DNA of 35,662 nt from Candidatus Omnitrophota bacterium (lineage in GTDB: Bacteria > Omnitrophota > Gorgyraeia > Zapsychrales > Fredricksoniimonadaceae), in assembly GCA_015228785.1 (NCBI GenBank), contig JADGCU010000003.1, forward strand, positions 8,018-43,679. Direction: 5' to 3'. The notes under the pieces are model-generated. The model made no database searches. It was not told the DNA's origin and saw only the letters and a program-made list of their open reading frames with translations. A program made the translations under genes and the position numbers. Every line of letters begins with the position of its first letter. Within the stretch, counting starts at the first letter, position 1. Positions 4,293 through 25,100 of this stretch are shown here, piece by piece.

Positions 4293-5300
4293 TCAGGCTG
4301 CAGGAGGCATGCAGGAATCGCGGACAACAAGTTCAGGATCCATGGCGATCTGGACCTTTTCCTCACGCAAGCCATTGATAAACTCGTGGAGGATCCGGAC
4401 GCCTTTTTCTGCCATCTCAAAAATAGGCTGGCGCACGGTCGTAAGCCCAATAGGACCATACAACGCCTGTGGGTTATCATCAAACCCGATAATCGAGACA
4501 TCTTCAGGGATACGAAGACCCATTTCAAAAGCAACAGCGATCACCTCAAGGGCCATGTCGTCGCTTTGGGCAAAGATCGCGGTGGGCCGATCTTTCATGG
4601 AGAAAAAGAATTCTGCGGCCTGACGAGAACTCCGACGAGAATAATCCCCGCGGTAAACATATTCTTTGGGAGTTTCGATCTTCGCCTCATCAAGACCCCT
4701 CATAAAGCCATCAAAGCGATCAAAACCGCCCTGCGTCTTCAGATTACCCGTGATTGTTGCGATCCTCTTATGCCCCAGGCCCACCAAGTAATCAGCGGCA
4801 ATCTTTCCACCTTTAATATTATTAATAGCAATATAACTAACATCAACATCCTGAACAACATTATTGATGACAAGACAGGGAATATGCTGCTCGAGGGCCT
4901 CTTGGACCTGCTTGCGGTTCTCGATAATATCCGCAAACAGAATTCCTCCCAGGAAATTTGTATTCAAAGGATTTGTCCCATCTGTAATATGAAACACCAT
5001 ATCCAGCTTGAGAGATTCACAGGCATGCCCCACGCCGCGGATAATTTCGATGGCAAAAAACGAATGGAATATCCCGGGATATCCGGGCATGACAAGACCA
5101 ATTGTGTTATTAGAGCCGCTGGCCAGCCTCTGGGCGCTGACATTAGGGCGATACTTGAGCTCAGCAACAGCCTGCTCAACGCGCGCAACATTTCTCTTGT
5201 TAACAGTGGGTAATTTATTAATAACACGAGACACGGTCGTAATGGAGACCTTGGCCCGGCGAGCGACATCTTTTATGCTGATGCGTTTTGTCGTAGACAC
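4293..5300 (-). CDS. LacI-family transcriptional regulator
   Basis: This is a 335-residue repressor-type protein. The N-terminus has the LacI helix-turn-helix and hinge (residues about 7-62: IKDVARRAKVSITTVSRVIN, later YRPNVSAQRLASGSNNTIGLV). A periplasmic-binding-protein-like sugar-sensing domain follows, with family motifs such as GHKRIATITG and IFAQSDDMALEVI and the FDD turn near residue 283. Start is GTG at 5298-5300, only 6 bp after the stop of the coiled-coil gene, so it probably shares that transcript. The carbohydrate locus at 6738-16624 lies just upstream on the same strand and is the natural candidate target, but this is inference from position. The effector sugar is unknown. Confidence 0.92.
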   Translation of the reverse strand: MSTTKRISIKDVARRAKVSITTVSRVINKLPTVNKRNVARVEQAVAELKYRPNVSAQRLASGSNNTIGLVMPGYPGIFHSFFAIEIIRGVGHACESLKLDMVFHITDGTNPLNTNFLGGILFADIIENRKQVQEALEQHIPCLVINNVVQDVDVSYIAINNIKGGKIAADYLVGLGHKRIATITGNLKTQGGFDRFDGFMRGLDEAKIETPKEYVYRGDYSRRSSRQAAEFFFSMKDRPTAIFAQSDDMALEVIAVAFEMGLRIPEDVSIIGFDDNPQALYGPIGLTTVRQPIFEMAEKGVRILHEFINGLREEKVQIAMDPELVVRDSCMPPAA

Positions 5301-5306
5301 GTTTTT

Positions 5307-6590
5307 CTATCTAACCGGATCCCCGGCCTTAAATGGCATGGTTTTCTGTTTGATGTCCGCCGCGGAGATATCCTTACGAACCTGGATAACTGCCACGGTC
5401 CCGATCGGCCTATTATCGCGATAAATCTTATAAGCATCGCCAACGCGGACGCCGTCTCTTTCCCCGAGATTAATGATAACAAAATTATTCTCGTCATTAA
5501 TGCTTACAACAAAACCACCCTTACGAAACGTGGCTGGTCCCGTCTTCACCGGTTCAACATTGGCGTTCACAACAATCGGTGCTAATTCAACTGATCCGGA
5601 AGATCCCCCCTTGTTCATATTAAACCGGGCATCCACATCCTTTTTGACCTTCCAAAGTTCATCGATGCGGTCCTGTATAATACTTTCCGTCTCAACCAAT
5701 TTCTTCTCAACAGAACTCTTGTCATCGCTCATCTTAGCAATGCTCTTTTCAAGAGCAACCTTGGTCGAGCTGAGCTGCTTGATCTCATTGCGAAGCGAAT
5801 TATTATCCGCGCCCACCACATCCGCCCTATCCTGAATCGCCTTCTGCTCATTGCGAGCGCGCGCCAGCTCAACAGAAAGATTATCCGCAAGCTCTTCGCC
5901 ATACTTGATCTTACGCAAAATGTCTTCGCGTTCAATCTTAAGCCGGCCCAATTCAACCTCGAGATCAGAATTGACCTTCTTGATCTCAGATAATTTCAGG
6001 TCACTTTCCGTGACTTTCTTTTTCGCATTCGCGATCTCAAGCTCAAGCGCACTCTTCTCGCGAAGGATCCCGGCCCAATACGCCTCATTGGCCTTATTCT
6101 CAACAACAATCGTTGTGGTGGATGCGGTCGGAGTGCCGGTAGCTGTCGCAGGAACCGTCTTCTCAACAATCTTCTCGACGACCCTTTCTTCAATGGGCCG
6201 GTTCTTCAGTTTTTCCATGAGATCATCACGCTCACGACGAAGGGTCGCCATGCGCTGTTCCCAATCTTTCTTGTCCCTCTCCAGGGATGCCAGATCATCG
6301 GAAGTACGGCGCTCTTCGCGCTCAAGATCATCATATTTCTTTTGAAGAATATCTTTATCGCTCTTCTGACGCTCAATATCCCGACGAAGATCCTTGGCCT
6401 GCTGTTCCTGATCACTTACCTGACGCGTAAAATCACGTACCTGTTTCTCATAATCAGTAACCTTGCCCTGCAAATAGTCATTCTTTTTCTCAAGTTCCTG
6501 TTTCTGCAAAAAAAGATATAGCGAGAAGCCAACGGCCACCACTAGTAAAACAAACAGGATTACCAGACTATGCTGGACGATCTTGGACAT
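5307..6590 (-). CDS. Membrane-anchored long coiled-coil protein with C-terminal beta domain
   Basis: I do not recognise a named family. The 427-residue protein starts with a short positive segment and one membrane helix (about residues 8-28). About 300 residues of charged heptad-type sequence follow, broken by a Thr/Ala/Pro-rich linker (KTVPATATGTPTASTTTIVV, about residues 145-165). The last 70 residues (from GGFVVSINDENNFVIINLGE) alternate hydrophobic strands with GV..GD turns and end in FKAGDPVR. That resembles small C-terminal beta domains of FlgT/MreC-like envelope proteins. Topology suggests a rod projecting into the periplasm. Start ATG is preceded by GGGAG 7 bases upstream and a promoter-like pair. 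The LacI-type gene follows after 6 bp. Confidence 0.8.
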   Translation of the reverse strand: MSKIVQHSLVILFVLLVVAVGFSLYLFLQKQELEKKNDYLQGKVTDYEKQVRDFTRQVSDQEQQAKDLRRDIERQKSDKDILQKKYDDLEREERRTSDDLASLERDKKDWEQRMATLRRERDDLMEKLKNRPIEERVVEKIVEKTVPATATGTPTASTTTIVVENKANEAYWAGILREKSALELEIANAKKKVTESDLKLSEIKKVNSDLEVELGRLKIEREDILRKIKYGEELADNLSVELARARNEQKAIQDRADVVGADNNSLRNEIKQLSSTKVALEKSIAKMSDDKSSVEKKLVETESIIQDRIDELWKVKKDVDARFNMNKGGSSGSVELAPIVVNANVEPVKTGPATFRKGGFVVSINDENNFVIINLGERDGVRVGDAYKIYRDNRPIGTVAVIQVRKDISAADIKQKTMPFKAGDPVR

Positions 6591-6737: not shown

Positions 6738-7403
6738 CTATTCAAAACGAATATTATCTAAATAAAACGTACAATGATGCGGATTGCCCTCCACATTGGC
6801 CACCCAGGCAAATCCACCGCTAATATACGAAAGGTCCTTGCCACGCAAATCCAATGTATATTCTTTCCATTCACTGGACAAAATCACAGGGCCCATGGAA
6901 GCTGTATCTGAGTCTGGATAAAGCTGATTAGCGCCTAGTCCACCGATCTTAAACTCCTCAATACGCTCCCCCCCCAATTCCCCCTTGGCCCAAAAAACAA
7001 GCCTGGTCGCACCGGTCAAATTATACCCGCCCTTCTTGCCGCCCCAGTTATCAGCCGGATTCTGCCAATACACGCCAGCCCATTGCCGACCCTCTTTGGA
7101 ACAGGCAATATCATACACAACACGAATACACGTCTTGCCATCTTTCACATCATACTGCCATCCATCATCAAGGCTCAGACATTCTCCTGTTGGCATGTAA
7201 CCAGATGGCGTAAAACGATTTTTGGATCCCTTGTCCTGATGAACAAAGAAAGAAGAAAACGCGGGCATCACTGTGCCCGTTTGGGGAGACACAGTCTGTT
7301 CCGGTTTCCGAGAAGACGTTGGCGGCTGTTTCGAACATCCCGAAACAGCCGCCAAAATCATACACACACTAATCAAAAAAACCTTTTGCTGCATACTGAT
7401 CAT
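6738..7403 (-). CDS. Secreted lipoprotein with carbohydrate-binding-like jelly-roll domain
   Basis: This 221-residue protein has a lipoprotein signal peptide ending in the lipobox VSGC (Cys at residue 23), then a Ser/Pro/Thr-rich linker. The rest (about residues 50-221) is beta-rich with features of CBM/galactose-binding-like folds: CIRVVYDIAC, an aromatic WAGVYWQNPADNWGG strand-loop, ATRLVFWAKG, SSEWKEYTLDLRGKDLS and the terminal CTFYLDNIRFE. No catalytic motif is evident. Its ATG overlaps the upstream gene's TAA by one base; a second in-frame ATG sits three codons later. As the last gene of the carbohydrate cluster it probably binds polysaccharide at the cell surface. The CBM family (11-like or other) is unassigned. 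Confidence 0.75.
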   Translation of the reverse strand: MISMQQKVFLISVCMILAAVSGCSKQPPTSSRKPEQTVSPQTGTVMPAFSSFFVHQDKGSKNRFTPSGYMPTGECLSLDDGWQYDVKDGKTCIRVVYDIACSKEGRQWAGVYWQNPADNWGGKKGGYNLTGATRLVFWAKGELGGERIEEFKIGGLGANQLYPDSDTASMGPVILSSEWKEYTLDLRGKDLSYISGGFAWVANVEGNPHHCTFYLDNIRFE

Positions 7404-8272
7404 TATTTCTGAGCTTCAAGCTCCACAATCTGCTGCTGAGCCGCCTCGGCAGGTTTCCAAAACCAACCCTGCGGATCCCAACACTGCGAAAACCCATAAT
7501 CTTTAGTAAGCTGATTAAACGTACTGATCGCCTCTGCCTTCATGCCAGCCGCGCGGTATGTCTGTCCCAGAATAAAAAGCGATGTCCCCACATCATTTAA
7601 AGCCCAATAAGAATGGATCTTCTCTGTGGACTCCCAAGGAAATTCCTTCAAGGTTGCCTGCATCTCTTTGGCGCGCTGCCCATAAAGATCCATATTCTTG
7701 GCCACATATGCCTTAACAGACTCAAGGTCCTTCTTGGCCGAAGCTGCCCACGCCTTCTGAACAATGGAACTGGAGGACATATCACCAAAATCCAGATCCA
7801 ACCCCTTCTCCATCATAGAAAGCTTATCTTTAGCCGCATCCACAGGCTTCCAGAATAACTTCTTACCCACATCGTAGCACTGACCAAAAGAATAATTATT
7901 CACAACAGACTGGAAAGCTGCCTTGGCTTCTTCCTTTTTCCCAGCTTGACGATAAGCCTCACCCTGAATGAAAAGACAGGTAGACACATCATTAAGCGCC
8001 CAGTATGAGAAAATCTTGGCATCATCGCCCGTTGGGACCGCGGTCAATTCTGACTGCATTTTCTTAGCCGTCTCTCCATACATCTCAATACACTTATTGG
8101 TATACGCAAGAACAGCATTCAAATCCTTCTGAGCCAAAGCACCCCATGCCTTTGTCGCAAAAGTAGAGGACTTGTGATCCCCAAAGTTATACGCAGCCTG
8201 TTGAGCCTGGGCGAACTGGGATCCGGCTACGGCGAAGATGGCCAGCACGCTTGTGATGATGAACTTTTTCAT
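7403..8272 (-). CDS. Secreted protein of two tandem TPR-like modules
   Basis: This 289-residue protein has a classic signal peptide (MKKFIITSVLAIFAVAGS, cleavage probably after AQA near residue 24). The mature part is two homologous modules of about 130 residues (roughly 28-155 and 158-287). Each runs FGD.., KAW.A.A.KDL..V.AY, a SYWALNDV segment, a TPR-like helix pair (G..YR.AG.K.EA...F), then a YxFxQC(Y/W)D..FWKP.(D/E)AA ending. The cysteine in QC is conserved between copies. The same module occurs in the upstream glycosidase gene. A good Shine-Dalgarno (AGGAGG, 7 bases) precedes the ATG. The upstream gap 8273-8374 holds a TTGACA hexamer but no convincing -10. Likely role: periplasmic scaffold or sugar-locus partner; function unknown. 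Confidence 0.8.
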   Translation of the reverse strand: MKKFIITSVLAIFAVAGSQFAQAQQAAYNFGDHKSSTFATKAWGALAQKDLNAVLAYTNKCIEMYGETAKKMQSELTAVPTGDDAKIFSYWALNDVSTCLFIQGEAYRQAGKKEEAKAAFQSVVNNYSFGQCYDVGKKLFWKPVDAAKDKLSMMEKGLDLDFGDMSSSSIVQKAWAASAKKDLESVKAYVAKNMDLYGQRAKEMQATLKEFPWESTEKIHSYWALNDVGTSLFILGQTYRAAGMKAEAISTFNQLTKDYGFSQCWDPQGWFWKPAEAAQQQIVELEAQK

Positions 8273-8374
8273 TTATTCCCTCCTGATTTTAATTAAAAAG
8301 ATTTAATTTTTCCTCAAATGTCAAATGTGCTAGTAAGTATGCCATATTTTTTGTCGTTTTGCCAGTGGACAACC

Positions 8375-10681
8375 TTACTCATTCCAAATTTTCTTATACA
8401 TGAAATATGCCGCACGCAAATGACGCAGAAAAGGGCTATGTTGTCCCTCCCCTTGCCCGACGATACCAAACCACTCCTCGTAATAATATCCCCCCGCAAA
8501 AGGCCCGATGACATCAGCTTTTATATCATGTTTTTCAGGTTCATAATTCTTCCACCACTCATCCAACCATTCAAAAGCAATGCCCCCCACCGCATTGCCT
8601 TCCCCTTCCTCATCACCTGCCATATTAGCCATGATGTCTAGCCAACTCCCCTGATGGTAATTCGCCTGAACGGCCTCGGCTTCCTCAAGAGTGCTCCCCT
8701 TAACATAAGCGGGGGCACCATATTCTGTCACAAACGCCGGTCTGTCAAGAACCCGTTTAACCTCGGCCCAAAATGACCCAAACCCGTAATCCCCACGATA
8801 TAAATTCGCGCCGTAAACGTCAATCTCGGTCGCGTATTTCGCTACATATTCAATCTGGATCGTATCCCCATTACATAACGCCACCGGACGCGATGGGTCA
8901 AGTTCCTTGATCCTCTTGGCGACCTTATTAACAAACTCATAATAAGCCTGCGGCTTTTTATCCGCGTTACTCGCAACACCATAATTGTTCTCATTCCCCA
9001 AAAGCCACATCACCACATACGGCTCATCTTTAAATTCCGTGACCATCTCCTCAACAGACTTCATCAAATTCGCCAAATGAACAGGATTCTCGTAGTCTGT
9101 TCCTTCGGCCCACGTGGCACCAGAACCAATGGTATACTTCCCAAAGAAATCTCCCATAATGACCCGAATCCCGTATTTTTTATAAAGATCTGATAAAACC
9201 TTCTTCTGAGGAAGATCAGGATGATGATAAACACGAAGGGCATTGACGCCCATATCCTTTAAAAGTTGAAAATCACCAACGGGAGTTTTCTTCCCATCCG
9301 TATCCACCCACGCATCGTACGGACCATCAGGTCGGCCATTACCATTGGTATCCTCAAGCATCCAGTTGGCGATCGTGCCCTTATCTGCGGTCTGACCGAT
9401 CTTAGTAGGGGAATACGTGATCCCCTTGATCACAAACGGTTTCCCGTCGACGAACATCCGCCAGTTCCCATCGGCATACTGCTCAAATCGCGCTTTTGCA
9501 CCCCCCAGAATGCGTGTCGGCTTCCCGAAATTCTTGACCAAATACGCCGGGCGTCCTTTCTTATGGCCATTAGGAACAATCTGCCCGGGAGAAACAATAA
9601 AGATATCGTTCTGAATATCCTTATCCGATCCATTGATCACATCGACCTTGGCATTCTTGAACGCCAGCTTCAATTCCGGATTGAACCGAAGAATATTTTT
9701 AATCTTACCGATCGCCGCTTGCGCCGGATACCATGGAGTATGCCAATATGTCCAGGATACAGAATTGGGGAAATTGACAACAAGTGCATGATATGCCTTA
9801 ATAGCCTCGAGATACATGCCCGAATTCTCAAGAATCAACCCCAGAAAAAAGAGCTTCACGCCGGGAGCCTCGGGCGCCATGGCCCACTTGAAATATGCGG
9901 CTTCCAGATCCTGCGTATTCACGAAATCCCAGTGAGACCCCTCGAGACGCCCTTCTCTATACACATCTTTATAACGTGAGTTTTTGTAAACATCTCCCGT
10001 GTTCGGATAAATCCCTTCCCCCACGGCCCGAGCCAACGCATTGGGATTACCCATGCTAAACTTATACTCTTTTGTTCCAATCCCGCTGAATGTTCCATAC
10101 TTTGTATAATCAACAATCGCATCCGTTCCCAGCGAAAACAACGTCGGCCTGGTCTTCGGAGCCTCCTTCACAACCTCTATTTTCTCAACACCCAGCATCA
10201 CATTAATACTTTCCTGACTTTTCTCAGCCACAGACCAAAAAGATCCTCGACTGGCATCCCACGACTGGGCATAAGGATAGACCTTGATCGTATTCTTAAA
10301 AGCCGCAATTGATTCTTCGTTCTTGCCTTGATGCATCAACGCCTCGGCGTGAACAAAAAGCACTGTCGCCAGATTATTCATGGTCTTATATTGCTCAATC
10401 ACATCTTTTGTCGGAAAAGTAGCTAGCCGCGATGCCTCTGCAAGGGCCTCCACCTCATAGGCCTTCAACGCAGCCTCGGTAATCGCATTCACCTTATCAT
10501 AATGACCGCTGCTCGAAGCCGCCCAAGCCATAGGAAGAAGTTCCGCTAATGGCTTTTGGGAAAAGTCCTCCTGAACGGCAACGACAACAGCAGGATCCTC
10601 AGCCCAAACATTCTGACTCGTGACGAATGACGTTAAAAAGATCCACCCTAAACCTGTAATGAACCGAGCTGTTTTACGCAT
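8375..10681 (-). CDS. Secreted clan GH-A glycosidase-like protein with N-terminal repeat modules
   Basis: This 768-residue exported protein has a signal peptide with likely cleavage after VWA (residue 27). Two copies of the TPR-like module shared with the next gene follow: one at about 40-170 and a shorter one at about 255-330. The C-terminal half is a glycosidase TIM barrel starting WRMFVDGKPFVIKGITY. Candidate acid/base is Glu564 in LLGNENNY and candidate nucleophile Glu653 in FVTEYGAPAY, the spacing and strand ends expected for clan GH-A (GH2, GH5, GH72 and relatives). DTNGNGRPDG at about 444-453 resembles a calcium-binding loop. The substrate is not predictable, but the setting (importer plus GH94 phosphorylase) suggests a beta-glucan or related glycan. 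It lies 18 bp after the permease gene. Confidence 0.82.
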   Translation of the reverse strand: MRKTARFITGLGWIFLTSFVTSQNVWAEDPAVVVAVQEDFSQKPLAELLPMAWAASSSGHYDKVNAITEAALKAYEVEALAEASRLATFPTKDVIEQYKTMNNLATVLFVHAEALMHQGKNEESIAAFKNTIKVYPYAQSWDASRGSFWSVAEKSQESINVMLGVEKIEVVKEAPKTRPTLFSLGTDAIVDYTKYGTFSGIGTKEYKFSMGNPNALARAVGEGIYPNTGDVYKNSRYKDVYREGRLEGSHWDFVNTQDLEAAYFKWAMAPEAPGVKLFFLGLILENSGMYLEAIKAYHALVVNFPNSVSWTYWHTPWYPAQAAIGKIKNILRFNPELKLAFKNAKVDVINGSDKDIQNDIFIVSPGQIVPNGHKKGRPAYLVKNFGKPTRILGGAKARFEQYADGNWRMFVDGKPFVIKGITYSPTKIGQTADKGTIANWMLEDTNGNGRPDGPYDAWVDTDGKKTPVGDFQLLKDMGVNALRVYHHPDLPQKKVLSDLYKKYGIRVIMGDFFGKYTIGSGATWAEGTDYENPVHLANLMKSVEEMVTEFKDEPYVVMWLLGNENNYGVASNADKKPQAYYEFVNKVAKRIKELDPSRPVALCNGDTIQIEYVAKYATEIDVYGANLYRGDYGFGSFWAEVKRVLDRPAFVTEYGAPAYVKGSTLEEAEAVQANYHQGSWLDIMANMAGDEEGEGNAVGGIAFEWLDEWWKNYEPEKHDIKADVIGPFAGGYYYEEWFGIVGQGEGQHSPFLRHLRAAYFMYKKIWNE

Positions 10682-10699: not shown

Positions 10700-11545
10700 T
10701 TATCCAATAACCGCGCCGGAAGATAACCCCTTAACAATATGTTTCTGCATAATGAGATAAACAATAATAATCGGCAAAGCCGTCATGGTAAGCCCTGCCA
10801 TAAGAACCGGATAATCCACCTGATACGCCCCGTTAAAAACCATAAGACCACGCTGAAGCGGCATCAAGTCCTTATCGTTCAAAAGAAGAGTCGCCAGAAT
10901 ATACTCATTCCAGACATTGAGCGCGTTATAAATAACAACGACCGCAATAGCCGGCTTCGCCAAAGGAAGGGCCACATGCCACCAGATCTGCAGGCGACTA
11001 CAGCCGTCGATCCGGGCCGCATCCTCCAAGTCGGACGGCATCTTATCAAAGAATGTCTTTAAAATAAAGATGCTTAATGAAAGCCCCACGTTAATCATGC
11101 ACAGAATATACCCCAGACGCGTATTGACCAAATGAAGCTTGTTCATCATCACAAACAAGGGAACAAAGGATCCCGGCAAGGGGATCATCATAGCCGCGAG
11201 AAACATGTAGAAAAGAACATCGCGCCCCGGAAACCTGAGTCGCGAGAACGCGAAGGCCGCAAGAGAGGCAACAACAACGATCCCAAACACGACGGAAACC
11301 GTATAAACCATGCTATTGATGAAGTACACCGCAAAATTCCCCTTAGTCCACGCAACAATATAATTCGACCAATTCAGATCTTTAGGAATAAGCGCATGCT
11401 CAACAAAAATCGTCTGATTAGTCATTAATGAAGACCGGATCATCCAAAATATGGGAAACAGGCAGGACACCATGACCGTGAGGAGAAAGACGTGAAGCAA
11501 AGAATTCCTGGTCCAACTCCAAATAACGTACTTATTAGGGAACAT
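10700..11545 (-). CDS. ABC sugar transporter permease (MalG type)
   Basis: This 281-residue inner-membrane permease has six expected helices. The cytoplasmic EAA loop, which docks the ATPase, is read as EDAARIDGCSRLQIWWHVALP around residue 180. It also has the MalG-type N-terminus (helix ending PIFWMIRSSLMTN) and C-terminus (LIMQKHIVKGLSSGAVIG). CUT1-family permeases import di- and oligosaccharides. The start lies 3 bp after the MalF-type stop, so the two subunits are translated together. No ATP-binding subunit gene is present in the window; CUT1 systems often share one encoded elsewhere. Confidence 0.93.
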   Translation of the reverse strand: MFPNKYVIWSWTRNSLLHVFLLTVMVSCLFPIFWMIRSSLMTNQTIFVEHALIPKDLNWSNYIVAWTKGNFAVYFINSMVYTVSVVFGIVVVASLAAFAFSRLRFPGRDVLFYMFLAAMMIPLPGSFVPLFVMMNKLHLVNTRLGYILCMINVGLSLSIFILKTFFDKMPSDLEDAARIDGCSRLQIWWHVALPLAKPAIAVVVIYNALNVWNEYILATLLLNDKDLMPLQRGLMVFNGAYQVDYPVLMAGLTMTALPIIIVYLIMQKHIVKGLSSGAVIG

Positions 11546-11548
11546 ACC

Positions 11549-12472
11549 TTACGCCTGTTTTATAGAATTAGATAACTTCTTCATCCCAAAAGAGACAACC
11601 ACAAGAATCGCTCCAAAAATGACGGCCTGAGCACAAGCATAGCCAAACTGATTCGTTGTGAACATCGAACCCAAAATCCGCGTAACCGGAACCTCCGTAT
11701 GATAGACAAGCCCCTGATTCACCAAAGACAAAATAAGAACAAAAACCTGCATGGATCCCAGGATTGTTAGGATCACAACCACCATAATAACCGGAAGCAT
11801 CATCGGGATCGTTACATTCTTAAAAGAAGACCAGCTCCCTGCCCCATCCACCTTGGCCGCCTCATAATACTGCTTGTCAATAGTCTGAAGACCTGCCAAA
11901 AGCATAATAAAACCCCAACCAAATCCCTTCCAGGAATGAACAACCGCAATACACGTCAGCGCTGTTTTAGGGTCTGACAACCAATTATGTACAAGATTTG
12001 GAAGCCCTGTCTGAACCAGGAAATAATTGAGAAGACCAATGTTCTGGCCATTCTGCTGTCCAGCATTGAGAACCCAGTTCCAAAGAATACCGACGACAAC
12101 TTCTGACAAAACAGGTGGAATAAAGAACACCATACAATAAAACCTTTTCATCCGGATCTCACGGTCACAAGCCAAGGCAAGAGCAAAGGCCAGGGCATTT
12201 TGAAAGGTAAGCGCAATAAGCGTAATATACGCCGCATGTCCCATCGATGCCCACCAAACCTTGTCTCCCGCGATCCCCTGAAAATTCTGGAAACCCACCC
12301 AAATCATGGGACCAATCCCCTGCCACTGGTGAAACGAAAGCCACAGTAGATTAAAGAAAGGATAAATGTAAAAGACAGAAAAGATCAAAACCGCAGGAAC
12401 GACGAACAAGGAATTCTTGAACGCATCCAAGGGCCCTTTACTAAAATCTCTTGTATCCGCCATTACAGGCAT
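11549..12472 (-). CDS. ABC sugar transporter permease (MalF/UgpA type)
   Basis: This 307-residue partner permease begins with a short cytoplasmic tail and a first helix (VPAVLIFSVFYIYPFFNLLWLSF in part), has several further helices, and an EAA loop YYEAAKVDGAGSWSSFKNVTIP near residue 200, the ATPase contact site. It forms the heterodimeric channel with the MalG-type protein downstream. ATG at 12470-12472 is used here; another in-frame ATG lies three codons later. It follows the binding-protein gene by 11 bp. Confidence 0.93.
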   Translation of the reverse strand: MPVMADTRDFSKGPLDAFKNSLFVVPAVLIFSVFYIYPFFNLLWLSFHQWQGIGPMIWVGFQNFQGIAGDKVWWASMGHAAYITLIALTFQNALAFALALACDREIRMKRFYCMVFFIPPVLSEVVVGILWNWVLNAGQQNGQNIGLLNYFLVQTGLPNLVHNWLSDPKTALTCIAVVHSWKGFGWGFIMLLAGLQTIDKQYYEAAKVDGAGSWSSFKNVTIPMMLPVIMVVVILTILGSMQVFVLILSLVNQGLVYHTEVPVTRILGSMFTTNQFGYACAQAVIFGAILVVVSFGMKKLSNSIKQA

Positions 12473-12483
12473 AATAAAAAGAC

Positions 12484-13812
12484 CTACCTCTTCATCTTAT
12501 CCAGTTGTCGTTCCTTAACAGCCGCAACATCCTGGGCAACTCTTTCAGGAGTGCTTTCTGCGATCATGATCGATTGAATCCCTTTAACAAACGTCTCCAA
12601 AGCCAGGGGGTCTTCATTCAAAGGCCAAACTGAAGGATGCGTCACTGTCTCCATGACCCGAGAAAATTCTGCAAGAACCTGTGGAATGGCCCCCAACGCC
12701 TCGCGATTCGCTGGTAAATTATTTGTCTGCTCCGATAAAAAAACCTGTTGTTCTTTCGCCGTCAACCACTTTAAAAATGAGATCGCCTTGTCTTTATTCG
12801 GCGAACTATTACTAACCTCAAAGGAAGACCCTGCCCCTCCCCACATCCTCATCGGCAATGCGGAATTAATCGGAGGAAGCTGTATAACCCCGTATTCCAA
12901 GGATGGATTCATATCATGATACACATTCACACACCACGAACCATTGAAAGCAAATGCGGCGCGCCCCAACGCAAAATCCTGTTCTGCAAGTTTATTGCCT
13001 TTTGTCACGATTCCTTGCATAAAAGCCCCATGATCGGTCAAAGTCTTAAATACAGAGAACACCTGGATCCAATCAGGATCCGTGTAGGGCACCTCACCGC
13101 GAAAAGTCTTAAAGACCTTCTCCTCACCCATAATGTTAAACGCGTAATTCAAGGCAAAGCACTCAACCAGCCACATTTCACCAAAACCTGAAACAAACGG
13201 CACGATACCAACACGCTTAAGGGCCTTGATCTGAGAAACAAATTCCGTAAATGTCTCTGGAGGCCTGGTAATGCCCGCCTTCCGCAAGAGCTTCTTGTTA
13301 TAGATCAACTGAATATTCGTCACATCAATGGGAACGCCATAAAGACCTGGCTTAACTTTTTCAATATTGCCCTCCGGGAACCGATTAACATCCAGGGCCT
13401 TTACGAACATCGACTTTTCCCAGGCAGAATCATGAGCCGCAAAATCTGCGCTGAGGTCAGCCACATAACCGGCTTTAATAAAAGAAGCCACAATGGCCTT
13501 TTTACTAAGGATCCCATAAATATCGGGAAGAACATTGGCTTGAGCTGCGGCGATCACCTTTTGACTGTAGGCGTCAGATGGGGCAAAAAGTTCAATCTTT
13601 ACTTTAATTCCTGTTTCTTGTTCATATTTCTTGGCCATCACTTCGAGAGCATCCTGTCGATCGGTCATCCAATGCCAGACCTCGATCTGATGGGATGGCT
13701 TCTTGGGCTGAGCACATCCCACTGCTGTGGCCAGAAGCGCGCAACAGAACCAAGAAAATATTTTCTTCATTTCTTGCCCATTTTCTTCACCGCTTTTACG
13801 ACGAAGCAACAC
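12484..13812 (-). CDS. ABC transporter sugar-binding lipoprotein (MalE type)
   Basis: Extracellular solute-binding protein family 1. After a lipoprotein signal (MKKIFSWFCCALLATAVGC) it reads IEVWHWMTDRQDALEVMAKKYEQETGIKVKIE, the standard first lobe, and contains family signatures such as GLYGVPIDVTNIQLIYNKKLLRKAGI and FAFNGSWCVN. It captures the oligosaccharide and delivers it to the two permeases that follow. The start is uncertain. GTG 13812 has AAGGA about 10 bases upstream and lies just behind a near-consensus promoter. ATG 13770 gives the more typical signal peptide but a weak ribosome site. Confidence 0.92.
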   Translation of the reverse strand: MLLRRKSGEENGQEMKKIFSWFCCALLATAVGCAQPKKPSHQIEVWHWMTDRQDALEVMAKKYEQETGIKVKIELFAPSDAYSQKVIAAAQANVLPDIYGILSKKAIVASFIKAGYVADLSADFAAHDSAWEKSMFVKALDVNRFPEGNIEKVKPGLYGVPIDVTNIQLIYNKKLLRKAGITRPPETFTEFVSQIKALKRVGIVPFVSGFGEMWLVECFALNYAFNIMGEEKVFKTFRGEVPYTDPDWIQVFSVFKTLTDHGAFMQGIVTKGNKLAEQDFALGRAAFAFNGSWCVNVYHDMNPSLEYGVIQLPPINSALPMRMWGGAGSSFEVSNSSPNKDKAISFLKWLTAKEQQVFLSEQTNNLPANREALGAIPQVLAEFSRVMETVTHPSVWPLNEDPLALETFVKGIQSIMIAESTPERVAQDVAAVKERQLDKMKR

Positions 13813-13906: not shown

Positions 13907-16624
13907 TTAAGACAGGAAAACTTTCACTTCCACAGCGGATGATCCCGCTAAAATGATCTCCCGAGGTAAACATATCTCAGCTAATGCAATCTTTTGCCCC
14001 GCCAGGCGAACCCCTGCCACTTCCACATGATCAATCCCATAAACTCCATAATCAAGCCCTTTGGGGTTAACATAGGTTACAGTTACGCGCTTACCAGCAA
14101 ACTGGCATATAACACGTGCCTCGCCTTTAGTATTAAATTCCTGAGCAACAAGCTTGGGAGCCAAAATCAAGTCCCCGCATTTACCACGCACACCATAGGC
14201 CTGCGTCAAAAGGGTCAACACATACCAACTCGCAGATCCCGTTAGAAAATGATACATCCCGCGCCCCAAAGAATCAAAATACTCCGGGATTCCTGGATAA
14301 ATTTTCGCACGATTGGGGTGCGCGCTCATTTCATACAGCGATCGCAGGACCTCATGCCCCTCACGGGCAAATCCCTGATGATAAAGCCCATAAGCATACA
14401 TGACCGCCATATGACTGAACACGGCCCCGTTCTCTTTTGTCCCAAAGGCAAACCCGAAAGCCCGCCCCATAGACAAATAATGACGCAACCCGAAATCTGT
14501 ATTCAGACGAAACCCTCCGGATTGATTGTCTCGAAGGAACTTCCGTACAGACTTTACAATCTCTTTCGCTTCCTCTTTTCCGGCAAGCCCGCTCATAAGA
14601 GGAAATACCTGCCCCGTCAGCGTCATCCAAACACGGTCATTCTTCTTGCCCTCGACGCGAACGCCCTCATTATCATAATAACCATTGAACCATGTCAGCC
14701 TTTCCCCGCCCTCGCTGATCGTGATCTTTTCCTGAGAACGAATATGCGCAAAAATCCATTCCGCCTTAGTCCTCAAATCCAAAACGAGTCCATCAATCGG
14801 TATGTCAACAACGACCCCACTAGGTTCCGGCTGAACAGCCTTAAAATACTCATCGAATAAACGTGCTTTCTTCGCAGCAGCATCATTATAATTAACAGGA
14901 TGATTGAGTGTATCAATCAACAGAGCCATCTCGCTCGTCATCTTGATCGACGTAATTGATTTAATGCGCGCCGCATTCTCCAAAAGATCCGCGATCTTAA
15001 GAAGATTGCCCGCATACATGCTCATAAACGCCACGCTCTCGCCGCGATGGAAGGCCATGTCAAGCCCGTCGTTCCAGTCCGCGCTCTCGAGACGCGTAAT
15101 ATTGTGCTCCCCGACATTAAAGAACTGAACAAGATTCTGAAGGAGAATATGTTCTAAGACCGTCGCGCGATGAACAGCCCCACTCTTATTTTTCAAGAAA
15201 TTCCCATAAGCTGCTGTCCAAAGAAGATTCTTCTCCATCGAGCGGGACATCTGCGGATCACAAAAATACGTCGCCTCCTCAAAGAGAAAATCTACATCCC
15301 CCGACTGATCGATATAAAGAAGCGTTGTCAGAAATGGCCACACGCCATGGTCCATCCACACGCGGGTAATGGCATTGCGATCCGCAATAAACTCTCCCGG
15401 CTTCTCACCGATGATCGTGGCATTGGAGCCATCAATACGAACCCCCGAAAAATTATTAAGAAGCTGAGCTCTCACCTCACCGGGCTCAATCAAGATCAAC
15501 GACAAAAGGTCCTGCCATATGTCGCGCCACCCCTTGCCGCCCTTGCCGTAATCATGATCCGGCAAAAAAGAACACCCGAATATCCGACGAAGGATAGGCT
15601 GCAAAGAAACCCAACGCATCCAGGAAGAGAATGCCTTGTCTGCTCCTTCAAAAAGAACAGCCGAGGTCTTCTCAATCCAGAAAACATCATTGGCCTTAAG
15701 GGCATCGTCGAACGCCGCGCTGGATGCAAATTTACTAAAATCAGCCTGGGCCGCGGCCTTACTATCCGCGATCCCGATGGCTATCACAAATTCTTTAGCC
15801 TCCCCGGGCTTCAGTGTTGTCGTCGAAAAACGTAAAGCCCCCACTGCTTCCTTCCCATCGCGCTCATCATCAGAAAGCAACCGTGGTTCGCGATGTTCAT
15901 AAATGGCCGCAGGTCTGTGAAGCCGTCCGCCCTCACCAAAGAAATCCTCTACCGTCGGGAAAGAGCCCACGGGCGTCGCTCCCGTCCCCTCACATCCAAA
16001 CACATAATAGATCAGCGAGCAGATCCTGTGCCCTTCCTCATTAAACAACATCGTAGGCTCAGAAATAACCCCTTCTGCAAGCTGTGTCGTACGTTTTAAA
16101 AGGGCCGTCACATGCTCATGATCGTGTTTATTAACAAGCGCCCTTCCAAAGATCGGCACAACGGCCGTAGGCGTAAACGTCACCGGCTGATAAACCACGT
16201 TCTTGACCCGAAACCTGGTTAATTCCAGCTGCTCTCCTGTAACAGGAATCAAGCTGGTCGCCTGAATCTCAAGGCCGACTTCCGGAAAAACGCGAACAAG
16301 TCGCTGCCACAACTGACCAATCTCAACATAAGACCCATCTCCGACTAAAGGCTCATCATCGAAAGAGACAACTCCCTTACCCGCAACATTAGTAAAGAAA
16401 TTTCTCACGGGTTCACGCAAATCTTCACGCGAAGAAGGTTTTGTCAGATACTTGCCTTTATCAACCTTGATATCACCACTTAAAAAAGGCGTGATGGCGG
16501 ATTTCAGGCTCGTTCCGTCCTTACCACACAGCGGCGCATAGGTCAGGCGCGAACGCATGGCCTCGGTCGATCGAAACGTAATCCCATCAGAAACAAAAGA
16601 GTAAAAACTATTGGCAGGCGGCAT
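13907..16624 (-). CDS. GH94-family glycoside phosphorylase
   Basis: This 905-residue cytoplasmic protein (no signal peptide) is of the cellobiose-phosphorylase type, which splits a beta-glucoside with phosphate to sugar-1-phosphate. An N-terminal beta-sandwich region (residues about 1-300) precedes an (alpha/alpha)6 barrel. DWNDGLDMAF at 516-525 is the GH94 catalytic motif, and by analogy with cellobiose phosphorylase the second Asp (residue 519) is the general acid. Other landmarks are YGKGGKGWRDIWQD near residue 358 and GGFRLNTDFG. The FNEEGH and FFGEGG segments remind me of the 1,2-beta-oligoglucan phosphorylase branch, but I hold this weakly. It leads the carbohydrate cluster behind a promoter-like pair; no Shine-Dalgarno is visible before ATG 16624. 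Confidence 0.88.
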   Translation of the reverse strand: MPPANSFYSFVSDGITFRSTEAMRSRLTYAPLCGKDGTSLKSAITPFLSGDIKVDKGKYLTKPSSREDLREPVRNFFTNVAGKGVVSFDDEPLVGDGSYVEIGQLWQRLVRVFPEVGLEIQATSLIPVTGEQLELTRFRVKNVVYQPVTFTPTAVVPIFGRALVNKHDHEHVTALLKRTTQLAEGVISEPTMLFNEEGHRICSLIYYVFGCEGTGATPVGSFPTVEDFFGEGGRLHRPAAIYEHREPRLLSDDERDGKEAVGALRFSTTTLKPGEAKEFVIAIGIADSKAAAQADFSKFASSAAFDDALKANDVFWIEKTSAVLFEGADKAFSSWMRWVSLQPILRRIFGCSFLPDHDYGKGGKGWRDIWQDLLSLILIEPGEVRAQLLNNFSGVRIDGSNATIIGEKPGEFIADRNAITRVWMDHGVWPFLTTLLYIDQSGDVDFLFEEATYFCDPQMSRSMEKNLLWTAAYGNFLKNKSGAVHRATVLEHILLQNLVQFFNVGEHNITRLESADWNDGLDMAFHRGESVAFMSMYAGNLLKIADLLENAARIKSITSIKMTSEMALLIDTLNHPVNYNDAAAKKARLFDEYFKAVQPEPSGVVVDIPIDGLVLDLRTKAEWIFAHIRSQEKITISEGGERLTWFNGYYDNEGVRVEGKKNDRVWMTLTGQVFPLMSGLAGKEEAKEIVKSVRKFLRDNQSGGFRLNTDFGLRHYLSMGRAFGFAFGTKENGAVFSHMAVMYAYGLYHQGFAREGHEVLRSLYEMSAHPNRAKIYPGIPEYFDSLGRGMYHFLTGSASWYVLTLLTQAYGVRGKCGDLILAPKLVAQEFNTKGEARVICQFAGKRVTVTYVNPKGLDYGVYGIDHVEVAGVRLAGQKIALAEICLPREIILAGSSAVEVKVFLS

Positions 16625-19185: not shown

Positions 19186-22100
19186 TCAAACACCTTTTGC
19201 CGATCCATCATTTCTCACTGCCCTAAGCGATGCCGTTGAATGACGCCTCCCAAAAACACGGGGTAAATTCATCACCCATGCTGAAACAAAAAATTTCCCA
19301 ACATCATACAACCGTTCGTAGACCATTGCCGCCAACCCTCCGCAATTAGCGATTACTCCCGTCTTGCCTAGCGCGACCAGGGTCCAAAAACCCGTGAGCG
19401 CCCATCCCCGACGCCTTGCTTCTTTCTTATCAATCGGATACCCGGCCGCTACAGATCCCGCTTCAACCGCCTTGGTGTGAAGACGCGTGATCAAAACACC
19501 CGTCGCTCCTGGAAAGAACACCGGCCAGGTCTTGGCATAAAGCGTCGCAATCCACGACGGAAGAGAAAAAGGAAGCACGGAAGTAATAAATCCATAAAAC
19601 GCCTTAGATCCCGCCACCACTTCAGGATGATGAATAAATAGATAGGCCATGCTCGGCAAGGCCTGAAGAAGCCCGACAAGACTCACGATCGCGCTCTGTT
19701 TAAGGCTCACCCTCGGACGACCCGCCATCTTCTGACTCAGGTAATCCGTCGTAAAACAGATCAACATCCCAAAGAAGATATCCGAGAAGATCGACCAATT
19801 GACCGGAAGCCACCACGCCAAAACAGGCTGAGCACGCAACTGATAGTACCAATCAAGAAGCCCTAACTTGCCGAGAAGAGCGATCCCCATAAACAATGCC
19901 CCAACCTGTGCAAGAACCTTGACCTTCACGGGAAAACGAAAACCCGTCATGCCAAGACGCTGTGCTTTCCCTTGTGCCATGTCCCCGCTAGGCCTGTTCT
20001 TGATCCCATGCCCCAAAGCCGCAACAGCCGCTGCCAAAGCAATAAGAGAAATCCCTCCGTTAACAACTGCGCTCAACGCAAGCGCCGCACGCCACGCCAG
20101 ACCTAGCATCATAAATTGAACCTGATGATAAAAACGCGCATGACCCACCTTCACCACATACGGTGTTCCCGACTTGTCATAATGCCACTCGTACAAACGT
20201 TTATGCGAAAGCCCATAAACAACTCCTGAGGCAACCCATGCCCCGACAGCAAACAACGGAGACAAACCCCAAAATAAGGCGCCCAATGCCATCAATATGA
20301 TCGGTCCAGAGAACAGAATTTCCTCACGCCACCAGGCTTGATGCCCCGCACGGGTCAGCTCTCGAGAGGCCCTGCCCATCTTCGCCTTCACGCCGATCAT
20401 GCCCAGGGTCTTCTCATTGACAGAAGACGAACAATTCTGCCGCTGAAACACATACACATAACTATGCTCCTCAACAAGAGCGCTTTCTGAAGAATTAGAA
20501 AGGAATGGCGAGCGGATCCTGCGAACCAACGGACGAGAAGACTTCGTAATGGCAAATCCTTCCCGACGGGAGAAATCAAGGAGTAACCGCTCAATCCGCT
20601 GAGATGTTTCAACTGACTTTTGAATCTGGGGGAACACCGTATGACGAAAAATAATCCGAGATGAGGGAGCCAAATACGCACCCGCAAACCTAAAGAATTC
20701 TTTCACATGTCCAAGATATGTGTAGCGTGTAGCGAGCTCTCCGGCTGACGCATCATACCCATCAACAGGAGAGGGCGTAAAAACGACCGTCGTAAACTTC
20801 TCTTCTCCAAGACCAGTAAAAAGATCCGTCCGGACACAGTCAAAACGCTTGGAATCAGCATCAAGACCCAGGTTCGCCACATTTTCTCGGACGCACTCCA
20901 AGGCCTGCTCTTTAACATCCGTAAATACAACGCGACTGGCATTTCTCTTAAGCATCATCAATCCCAAAACTCCAGAGCCTGTTCCCACATCAAGCCCGAC
21001 CTCACCTGACAGATCATTGCCCAATCGACTAGTTACAATCTGGGTCAACATCGGTGAAGGTGCATACACATGCCCGCGGCTTGAGATAACCCCCAGGCCT
21101 TCAATCGGGACACTACGCTCAACACGAACGCGTGCAAACTGCTTAAGCCTCTGGGCCTCTTCATCCTGAGGATACGCTTTCCACTCACTCCTCCTGTTTT
21201 GATTCCGACGCACCATCCTTCCCCGCTGCGGCAACCCCTCCATTCTTTCGACAAGCCGACTTGGCAAAGCCGCCAAGCTGGGGCCTGCATAATGAATATC
21301 ATCAACCAAAGAAATTCTTGCTTCAGGAAACATCGACTGAACGCGATAATTAAAGACGGGATTACTCTTTGTCGTATAAAATACGGGAGGGGCACGACGC
21401 GAGCCTTCTCCATTGAGACCTACCTTGGGGACAAGATGCAAACTCTCCTCAAGATACTCAACCGGATCAACGATCCTGAGCCACGGAAAGTTTGCCTTCA
21501 AGAATTCCTTCAAGACCGGATAATGGGTGCAGCCCAAAAGAAGCGTATCGTATGTCTTGATCTCTGGAATGGCTTGAAGCATCGTCGACATCTCATGCTC
21601 AGCCTGAACGATCTGGCCCTCTTCAATAAGCTGTGCCAGCCGCGAGAATACCAACGGGTACACTTCGTATTGCGATCCAAGTTCTTTCTGATAATATCCG
21701 GACCTGATCGTTGCTGGTGTGGCTGCGAGAATGATCTTACTCGCAGGAAAACCACTCGTCTTAAGATAAGCAACATGCGCCACCATCTCAAGGGCAATAT
21801 TAGCCGTGCTCATGCCCTGGCGTTCTTTAATAAGGTCCCAGTCCACATTCACAGCCATCGTATTACAGGCACAAAAGATCCGCTGGGCCCCCATTCCTTT
21901 CAAGAAGGCCACACACTTTTCAACCCATTTCTGAACTTCTTCTCTGCCGTGGGACCCATACGGCAGATTTTCGATATCCCCCAAATAAACCACCCTATAT
22001 CCCGCCTCATGCAACACTCGCGCCGAATCAAGCCCGCCGCTCCCGGAATCCAGGACGCCGACCGCCTCATGACGGGAAAAAGCCCTCTCACTCACCTGAG

Positions 22101-25100
22101 ACTCTAAAGATGGCGAAGCAACCGAAGAAAGCATATCTGCCTTGCCCCGCTGGTCAACCATCCCCTGCCGCGATCCTTCCTCCCTTTCGTAAACCGGGGC
22201 AGGGACCACCTTTTCCACACCCTCAGACGGCCTTGTCTTTAAAGAACTCAGCCCCTCACAGAAAGCCCTGACCTCCGGACAGCCGAGAAGCCTCTCCAGC
22301 GATGAAGACGGATTAAGGCTCTCTAAAACATCCTCAACAAGAAGATCCTGCGGATCCACAAACACAATCTCAAAGACCTCTCCATCTCCTTGACCCTGCT
22401 TGCGCAGACGGCGCAGGGATTTTTCGAAAGCCTTACGATCCCGACCGCTTGCCTTATCAAGCGAGCCCTTAAATTCAAGGATATGCCTGGCTTCCAATAA
22501 CGACGGCGTATAAAGGAAAGCCGCGCTCCGGTGCGGCTCCCATTTGCGGCCATCATCAAAGAATCCTGTCCCGATCCGCTGAAAAGTACCCTCCAGAACA
22601 TGCCGCCCGGGCTTCCCCTTACGGAAGGCCAGGCCCGTCTCTTGAGATACCTCAGCCCGAGCCGCTGCCTTATAAGGATCAACCTGATAACGAGAACTCT
22701 CCAGCCGTCCACCGAATAACTTAAGCTTGCCATTGCTCCCGCGCATAAGTGCAATCTTCCCGGTCTCCGGCATCTGCACGAAAACCTTGGCAGCCCGGCA
22801 CAAGAGCATCTGCCCTTTCTTGCGTTCATCTTTATTGTCCGCATCCACATACCGGCCATCCTTCAAGAAGACCAGTTGTGTCACTGCCACATCCAAACTT
22901 CCCAGATGTTCTTCGCGATCATCCAGGCCAACCGCCACCACATCATTCTTCTGACCTTTAAGGCGTAATCGGCCACCACGGACATCAACAAGAAGTTTCC
23001 TATAATGATCCGGGGTGATCGGTGTGCGGCCTGAACGGATAAGCGGTTTCAATTGTCTCGCCAAGATCAGGAAATCCGATTTCTGACGAAGAAAACGCTT
23101 CATGTCCTTCACAAGACGCCTGAGCGCCTTTTTCTTCGACTCCGCAGGTTTCTGCGGAACACTCAGAGTAAAACGCGAAGGCACAACAAAATTCCATAAT
23201 GTATGCATTCCGATTGCAGCGGCAAACGCAGGCACCGCACCCCATGCCGCCCCCACAAGTGCTGCCAGCATGATCAGGCTAATACCACAGGCGCGATCTG
23301 CGCGCTGCGACTTAGTCTGAGGCGCATGTAAATCTAAATGTGTGCGCCCATTAACGAATGCCAGGCCAGCGACACACGCCGCGAATAAAATCTGAGCAAC
23401 AAGACCAAAAGAAGAAATATAAGGAAGTGCCAGAACGACAGGGATGATCAGCGCCACGCGACTGGCCCGCAGCATGCGCCAGGAAAGCTTCAGAGCCGTT
23501 CCCTTGTCCTTAAATCCAATCCGCGCATCAACAAGTTTAGCCAGCGCATAATGAAGCGCGCCGATACCCGTTTCCTCATAAATCGGAGCAATGCCCCTCT
23601 CCAGCTGCCGCTGAGATAGTCGAGGGAACAGCTCTTTCCAGAACGGCATACAATGAACCACCGGTCCTATGGAAGAAAATCGCCTGACAGGAAGAGCCGC
23701 CATCTCTGCTTTCAAACTCGAATGTGTTTTCAGAAGATCTTTAATACCACTAGCCCAGACCGTAGCCCCGCGGGTAAATACAGGAGATAAAGGATCATTG
23801 GCAAGGAGTTTTCTAAACCCAAGGCTCGCCACAAGCCCCTCAACAGGCTCTGCGATCTTTTGTGTTTCATCAGGCCCCAAAGTATAATAAACAAAAACCG
23901 ACTCCGGTGACATCCCGCGACGACGCGCTTCCTCATAAGCACGATCAACGCCTGAAATAATAAGCCTGCGGCCAATGCCATGACGGGGATTAAAACTCTT
24001 CAGATCAAAACACGAGTAGATCACGAGCGCCTTCGGATCGACCATCATATGAAGACGCCCCATCAACCTCTCCCCTGAATAAAGCAACACTCCGCAACGT
24101 ATGCTCTGCGCTCCCAGCTCATGAGCCTCCCACTTCACACACGTGAGGTCATTTCTAAAAAGACCGTCATGGCCCAGATCCGTCTCTCGTGCCGCCTTCA
24201 CGTCTGCGCTCTCCCAGACAAGATGCGCCATAACGGACGGCACCTTGAGTCGTTTGAGCGTAGCTAGACGATGCGTTCCGTCATCCATCTTGATTAGGCC
24301 TTCACGAGAAATAATAATCTTAATCCCTGTATGTTCCTGAACAGGAACATCACCCCGAGCAAACGCTCCGCTCAGGAACGAAACCCTTCTACCCCATTTA
24401 CGAACGATATCCACATGGCGCGCATCTGTTAAATACGCGACCGAAACCAAACGTGCCTCATGAATCTTGCCTGTAAAAATCGTATCATCCTGCCCCCGCC
24501 GGGCCTGCGCCTCGGCACACTGAGCCAGATAAGCCAGCGAGCGCTTCAGTCCTTCTGCCCAGAGAGAACCTTCACTATTTCCTAAGGTCATGGCAAGAGC
24601 GCCCCCGGAAACCAAACGAGCCATGTTCCATTTCACATGCTCATTGATAGCATCTACAAGATTTCTTTCTTTATTCTCGCGGGCCAAATTATAAAGGGCT
24701 GAGAGTTCTTTCCACGTCGCGATCCCTAAACGGGGCAATGGATCATCATCTTTCATCACGATCCTGATGCAGATAATGTGCTTCAGCGCAAACCAGAACG
24801 GCGCCCCACGGATCCCGTTATAAAGCTTAAGTTCGATCTCCTCACGACGGGCCTGCCTTCTTATAAACTCCTCAGTATCGCCCTGTAAAATCGCCCAGCT
24901 CAACTCGCCGATCTTCCACGGGTACAACCCCAACGGCCCCTGGCTCGACTGACCAAACTTCTGCTGGTTGTTGCGGACGCGCCAGGGACTCTTCCACTGA
25001 GGAAGCGTATGTTTACGGAAACTCACCATGGATGTTTCCGGAGAATCGATCCAGACGATCGGCGTCTCGACGGATTTATAACCCGCGATCTGAGCCCGGC

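Follow-up and report, generated by a model that had tools for sequence, protein, structure and literature searches.

The stretch of DNA analysed here (35,662 nt of contig JADGCU010000003.1, from a member of the candidate phylum Omnitrophota, class Gorgyraeia, order Zapsychrales; the whole stretch is hereafter called the window) carries on its minus strand two neighbouring genes whose products each begin with an N-terminal signal-like stretch and have a helical module in common. The first open reading frame (ORF) encodes a secreted protein of 289 amino acids (aa) (TPR2x; 7403..8272), in which a signal peptide is followed by module copies A (aa 28-157; 7802..8191) and B (aa 158-289; 7406..7801), both delimited by profile-profile alignment and by an AlphaFold2 model (pLDDT 92.5) that gives them the same architecture. 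Pfam recognizes tetratricopeptide repeats (TPRs) in this protein at residues 99-127 (TPR_6) and 228-255 (TPR_12). The second ORF encodes a secreted glycosidase of 768 aa (8375..10681), which was assigned from Pfam and from sequence and fold matches in the PDB and consists of module copy C (aa 36-165; 10187..10576), aligned to A and B with hhalign and identical to them in predicted secondary structure, a half-module D (aa 255-333; 9683..9919), a β-rich domain and a catalytic glycoside hydrolase clan A (GH-A) barrel nearest to family GH158 (aa 404-766; 8384..9472). A preliminary description, made from the sequence of the window alone, had placed both genes at these positions and had counted four module copies of 80-130 residues, two in each protein.

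Profile comparisons establish three of the four as full copies. Alignments split by copy gave hhalign E-values of 1.6e-70 (A-B), 1e-37 (A-C) and 2.9e-43 (B-C), the low-E matches span the full ~125 aa, and the A-C profile score of 227 compares with at most 22 for column-shuffled C profiles (60 trials). The full modules are A, B and C, each about 125-130 aa long, and the earlier size range is corrected to this length. D was ruled out as a full fourth copy, as the hallmark residues described below are missing and the alignment covers only half of the module: it extends over 59 residues (E 1.7e-6; the score is 45.6, and shuffled profiles reach 25.4 at most), LNDVxT and QxWDP are both lacking, and the cap is matched through WxPxxAA only. 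We call D a half-module, divergent as it is, because its predicted secondary structure of TPR hairpin, short β-hairpin and cap helix (supported by hhalign) resembles the second half of the module.

In the AlphaFold2 model the module runs in the order helix A1, long helix B1, short helix, helix A2, helix B2, β-hairpin and cap helix, which in copy A correspond to residues 35-47, 51-74, 84-88, 91-109, 113-126, 132-141 and 143-155. Helices A2 and B2 form a true TPR hairpin (TPR_6 at 48 bits in the 289-aa protein, against a Pfam cut-off of 26.3; half-module D reaches 26.5), and a PDB sequence search with the module matched 25-29 residues of designed TPRs and nothing longer. The module as a whole is not TPR only, since the model adds the β-hairpin, the cap helix and an extended helix A2. 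Conservation, computed over 186 modules and numbered as in the 289-aa protein, is concentrated in a set of hallmarks: W43, A69, L93-N94-D95-V-x-T98 and Q131-x-W133-D134-P-x-G-W-F-W141. Eight of these positions (A69, D134, N94, Q131, W141, W43, G138 and W133) are 92-99% conserved, D95 and W139 reach 84% and 81%, and the TPR-core positions of A2/B2 lie at 35-67%, save A116 at 93%, so the parts that are not TPR are the best-conserved portion of the module. N94-D95 and Q131-W133-D134-W141 are expected to be neighbours, since in the hairpin A2 begins at the same end at which B2 finishes. The preliminary description had likewise proposed a specific end motif; such a motif exists, with these hallmarks in place of the residues first named.

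Neither Pfam, NCBIfam, PHROGs nor the PDB holds anything that matches the module beyond the short TPR unit, and Foldseek against the PDB returned no fold match for the 289-aa protein at E ≤ 0.001. The TPR unit, the GH158-like barrel and the laminaribiose phosphorylase discussed below are already known; the libraries searched and the literature found contain neither the module family nor its hallmark, nor its pairing with the glycosidase across the phylum. The module is a TPR derivative and not an unrelated fold; the preliminary description is supported in that it is a distinct module with an end motif of its own. That A, B and C are alike only as any two TPR proteins are, with nothing specific in common, is very improbable: the confident Pfam matches are indeed confined to TPR families, but the shuffled profiles, the non-TPR hallmarks over the 186 modules and the full-length matches refute it for these three copies, and in part only for half-module D.

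The way in which module and enzyme are joined and separated provides the best evidence that the two act together, in a Rosetta-stone pattern of fusion and fission. Copy C is fused to the enzyme in 84 of the 99 glycosidases compared. In six others a single-module protein is encoded separately, immediately upstream, and abuts or overlaps the enzyme by 0-14 nt; both proteins carry an export signal of their own and are for this reason not frameshift artefacts (in locus L144 the overlap was assessed from a probable internal start, the longest ORF having a larger overlap). In another four, a two- or three-module protein lies upstream of an enzyme without C; the remainder comprise four without a module and one on a broken contig. 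A 1242-aa enzyme ORF overlapping MalG in L050 was regarded as an open frame that extends too far. The tree (FastTree, moderate support) requires at least four changes between the fused and unfused states, whereas the downstream 289-aa gene could have arisen only once. As a discrete part of a carbohydrate-active enzyme that is separable in other lineages, the module has the form of a carbohydrate-binding module (CBM).

Both genes belong to an operon in which the order PilZ-(GH94)-SBP-MalF-MalG-glycosidase-289-aa-LP221-coiled coil-LacI-MnmG is largely kept throughout the order, and synteny extends for the most part across the phylum. In the window, all on the minus strand, MalG-like and MalF-like ATP-binding cassette (ABC) sugar permeases (10700..11545 and 11549..12472; ORFs, conserved synteny) and an extracellular sugar-binding protein (SBP; 12484..13812, SBP_bac_1 E 1.6e-32) form an importer whose operon has no ATP-binding subunit gene, so that the importer presumably borrows a subunit encoded elsewhere. 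A GH94 phosphorylase (13907..16624) lies next to the SBP gene, and on the other side of the glycosidase and the 289-aa gene are LP221, a 221-aa lipoprotein with a conserved CBM-like domain (6738..7403; recognized as an ORF, by synteny and by the same domain in a GH17 protein described below), a 427-aa coiled-coil protein (5307..6590) and a LacI-family regulator (4293..5300), the latter two assigned from Pfam and synteny. The coiled-coil protein is membrane-anchored, shows weak similarity to FlgT_C close to its C-terminus and stands beside LacI across the class. The canonical LacI operator (TGNAANCGNTTNCA) was rejected for the window, where the single one-mismatch match is at chance level. Further along the minus strand, a 5490-aa open frame (19186-35658) has Pfam matches to a small methyltransferase, Asp/Glu racemase, chorismatase-N and transglutaminase-like domains. 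Most of the remaining class lacks the 289-aa gene, often has LP221 as a two-domain tandem, and carries a second GH-A enzyme of ~430 aa after it. In one family (L160:4969-8673, minus strand; L161:11200-14850, plus strand) a GH-A barrel like this second enzyme is fused N-terminally to the main glycosidase, giving a protein of about 1200 aa that is a further link between parts of the operon.

Across the 285 Omnitrophota genomes sampled, the glycosidase is present in 184 and the module in 155. A strong glycosidase match occurs in 153 of the 155 module-positive genomes, where 93 would be expected, a figure that is inflated because module and enzyme are usually one gene. The association of the module with an importer and a GH-A enzyme, noted at first in the window only, recurs across the phylum.

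The barrel, the phosphorylase and the importer point to the substrate. The best PDB sequence matches of the barrel are members of GH158 (9oro, 7.6e-16; 6pal, 1.5e-13), as are its fold matches, in which both Glu-bearing motifs are aligned at a low identity of 17-19%; the Pfam match is GH2_C. The two glutamates, E564 (GNENNYG) and E653 (TEYG), are invariant in the glycosidase alignment and are presumed to be the acid/base and the nucleophile. The GH94 protein matches laminaribiose phosphorylase 6ggy with 851 bits over residues 10-874 (E 6.4e-255), the next PDB match having 62 bits. Taken together, the SBP/MalF/MalG importer, LacI, the GH158-like barrel and a GH94 of the laminaribiose phosphorylase type make the locus read as one for β-1,3-glucan utilisation. 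The GH94 slot is variable: it holds a laminaribiose phosphorylase type here and a cellobiose-phosphorylase type elsewhere, as in the L096 lineage, and is empty in some genomes; the cellobiose-phosphorylase-like enzymes of other lineages mean that the exact glucan may vary.

Relatives of the module were also found outside the operon and, in a search of plasmid, phage and viral collections, outside the phylum. Among plasmid records the single relative, 552 aa long and with two modules (E 3e-16), comes from Candidatus Chlorohelix allophototropha (phylum Chloroflexota) and keeps most hallmarks at 27% overall identity. One gene beyond it, on the same strand, a GH17 protein is encoded in which two LP221 domains were recognized (1e-51 and 7e-39), and in Haliscomenobacter LP221-like proteins are likewise found close to a GH17 gene. 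Family GH17 includes β-1,3-glucan-active enzymes. Linkage to glycoside hydrolases elsewhere, which the preliminary description proposed to look for with a profile search, is seen in the phylum-wide tie to the glycosidase and in this two-module relative near a GH17 protein. LP221 itself, for which neither Pfam nor the PDB gave a match, even by profile, to a known family or structure, is on this sequence context a candidate new carbohydrate-binding family; its domain occurs in tandem in many Omnitrophota, and LP221 was recorded at L165:9780-13127 and L167:5863-7020 besides 6738-7403 on the minus strand of the window.

A different kind of relative is encoded by a tailed phage in IMG/VR, recovered in identical form from two metagenomes, as a secreted single-module protein (L163:4187-4672 and L164:3501-3986, both on the plus strand) located between DnaB/DnaD and resolvase/terminase genes and sharing 64% identity with module copy A from a relative among the Omnitrophota. 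The module was not found in described phages or PHROGs, and a second viral scan returned the same phage only. A prophage host for it among the Omnitrophota was considered and rejected, its terminase having matched 1 of 285 genomes, at 44%. Envelope modification and superinfection block were considered as roles of the phage module.

Such occurrences invite the explanation that the module is a general structural or stress TPR protein of the envelope that was captured by the glucan locus, its hallmark being a structural lock and its link to the glycosidase a matter of history. The lone phage copy and the lineages without a module agree with this, as do dispersed paralogues scattered among Sir2, SecA, diacylglycerol kinase, BON-domain, spermine-synthase-like and similar genes in the part of their neighbours that was scanned. 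Yet these paralogues fall inside the clade of locus copies (on a weakly resolved module tree), and being mixed within that clade they look derived from locus copies; the module is also repeatedly kept at the glycosidase across the phylum, both fused and separate, and the same parts recur near a β-1,3-glucan-type enzyme, the GH17 protein, in another phylum, which speaks against a purely historical association. We therefore regard a general envelope role as unlikely.

That the module is an exported partner acting together with the glucanase is strongly supported by sequence, and its gene context indicates that it works with β-glucan enzymes. Our favoured reading, to which we assign a probability of roughly 0.47, is that the module is a TPR-derived, non-catalytic accessory of the Omnitrophota β-1,3-glucan locus that holds enzyme and glucan at the cell envelope, probably through direct binding of the glucan. 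Sequence supports that it is exported, that it forms part of the secreted GH158-like glucanase or lies next to it, and that it belongs to the operon which imports the products and splits them by phosphorolysis. It would keep enzyme and polysaccharide together at the envelope, with β-glucan contact presumably made through the conserved Asn-Asp and Gln-Trp-Asp-Trp-Trp cluster expected at the junction between the beginning of helix A2 and the β-hairpin that follows helix B2. The tandem 289-aa protein could then serve as a multivalent holder, with a role like that of SusD-type or surface glycan-binding proteins (SGBPs), and module C as a built-in CBM equivalent, while oligosaccharides would enter via the SBP/MalFG importer and be split by the laminaribiose phosphorylase. 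Two features favour direct holding of the glucan: the conserved aromatic/polar site stays stable from one phylum and context to another, and the tandem standalone copies resemble multivalent binding proteins. Our preference for β-glucan binding also draws on the analogy with SusD or CBMs. The more specific proposal that this is a new TPR-derived carbohydrate-binding module for β-1,3-glucan, acting through its Asn-Asp/Trp-rich end site as the SusD or CBM equivalent of the Omnitrophota and Chlorohelix and captured by at least one phage, is put forward tentatively.

Several points weigh against glucan binding by the module. TPR domains usually bind proteins, and docking is thus an equally natural function. 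The assembly of the hallmark residues into one pocket is suggested by secondary-structure order and not by coordinates, and the co-occurrence of module and enzyme is inflated as stated above. In eighteen genomes the glycosidase occurs but no module does; at nine loci of the order, module paralogues lie away from the operon, with no glycoside hydrolase among the neighbours scanned; and given the GH94 swap the β-1,3 specificity may not be general.

The main rival to glucan binding is a docking module, whose TPR faces would join glucanase, 289-aa scaffold, LP221 lipoprotein and importer, as in cohesin and dockerin or as proposed for Fibrobacter TPR proteins. We consider it possible but less likely. 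Fusion and fission combined with near-zero intergenic distances would suit a stoichiometric complex, multi-copy standalone proteins would suit a scaffold, and TPR proteins of Fibrobacter succinogenes are reported in cellulase complexes (PMC6851124). On the other hand, conservation peaks in the aromatic/polar hallmark and not in the TPR core, and the hallmark is retained in different phyla and in copies that are not accompanied by this enzyme family; surfaces used for docking should change along with their partners. No cohesin or dockerin Pfam domain was found in either protein.

The Omnitrophota are mostly ultra-small and uncultured, and their diet is unclear. A study of 14 metagenome-assembled genomes (MAGs) from Ace Lake concluded that enzymes for the initial depolymerisation of polysaccharides are absent (PMC8542988), but the MAGs of Candidatus Zapsychrus exili and Aceula lacicola named there (our L084 and L088) encode the glucanase with both catalytic motifs intact and, next to it, the module. 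Provided that the enzyme is active, a conserved ability to break down extracellular β-glucan has gone unnoticed. A module that binds glucan would in turn be a new fold class among glycan-binding modules and would offer a testable way to learn what a whole phylum feeds on.

Among known systems, the cellulose system of Fibrobacter succinogenes is similar in that secreted TPR proteins are proposed to assemble polysaccharide-degrading complexes at the cell surface, and differs in that the available part of its description mentions no enzyme fusion, the likeness being one of description (PMC6851124). With ordinary TPRs (TPR_6, PF13174; TPR_2, PF07719; periplasmic YbgF/CpoB-type proteins) the module has in common a second hairpin above the Pfam cut-off in each module of the 289-aa protein and a weak NCBIfam match to tol_pal_ybgF; unlike them, it has a first hairpin without a Pfam match, an N-terminally extended A2, and the QxWDPxGWFW hairpin and cap as additions. 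The solved GH158 enzymes (BuGH158, 6PAL; GH158(Pro), 9ORO) are the best barrel matches by sequence and fold, with aligned Glu motifs, whereas their chains lack the N-terminal modules and the β-rich domain of the window glycosidase.

SusD proteins are helical and contain TPR units. No SusD family was among the Pfam matches at E ≤ 1, and the SusD fold was absent from the 50 best Foldseek PDB matches, obtained at low TM-scores with a two-module query. In contrast to SusD systems, the importer here is of the ABC type and not TonB-dependent. The likeness to the SusD/SGBP proteins of Bacteroides 1,3-glucan loci lies in the arrangement, a non-catalytic exported partner beside a GH158-type enzyme and an importer (PMC7157763). 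In the Bacteroides GH158 locus the SusD homologue did not bind the likely substrates and a second protein did (PMC7157763), and by analogy LP221 could be the binder of the Omnitrophota locus and the TPR module its organiser.

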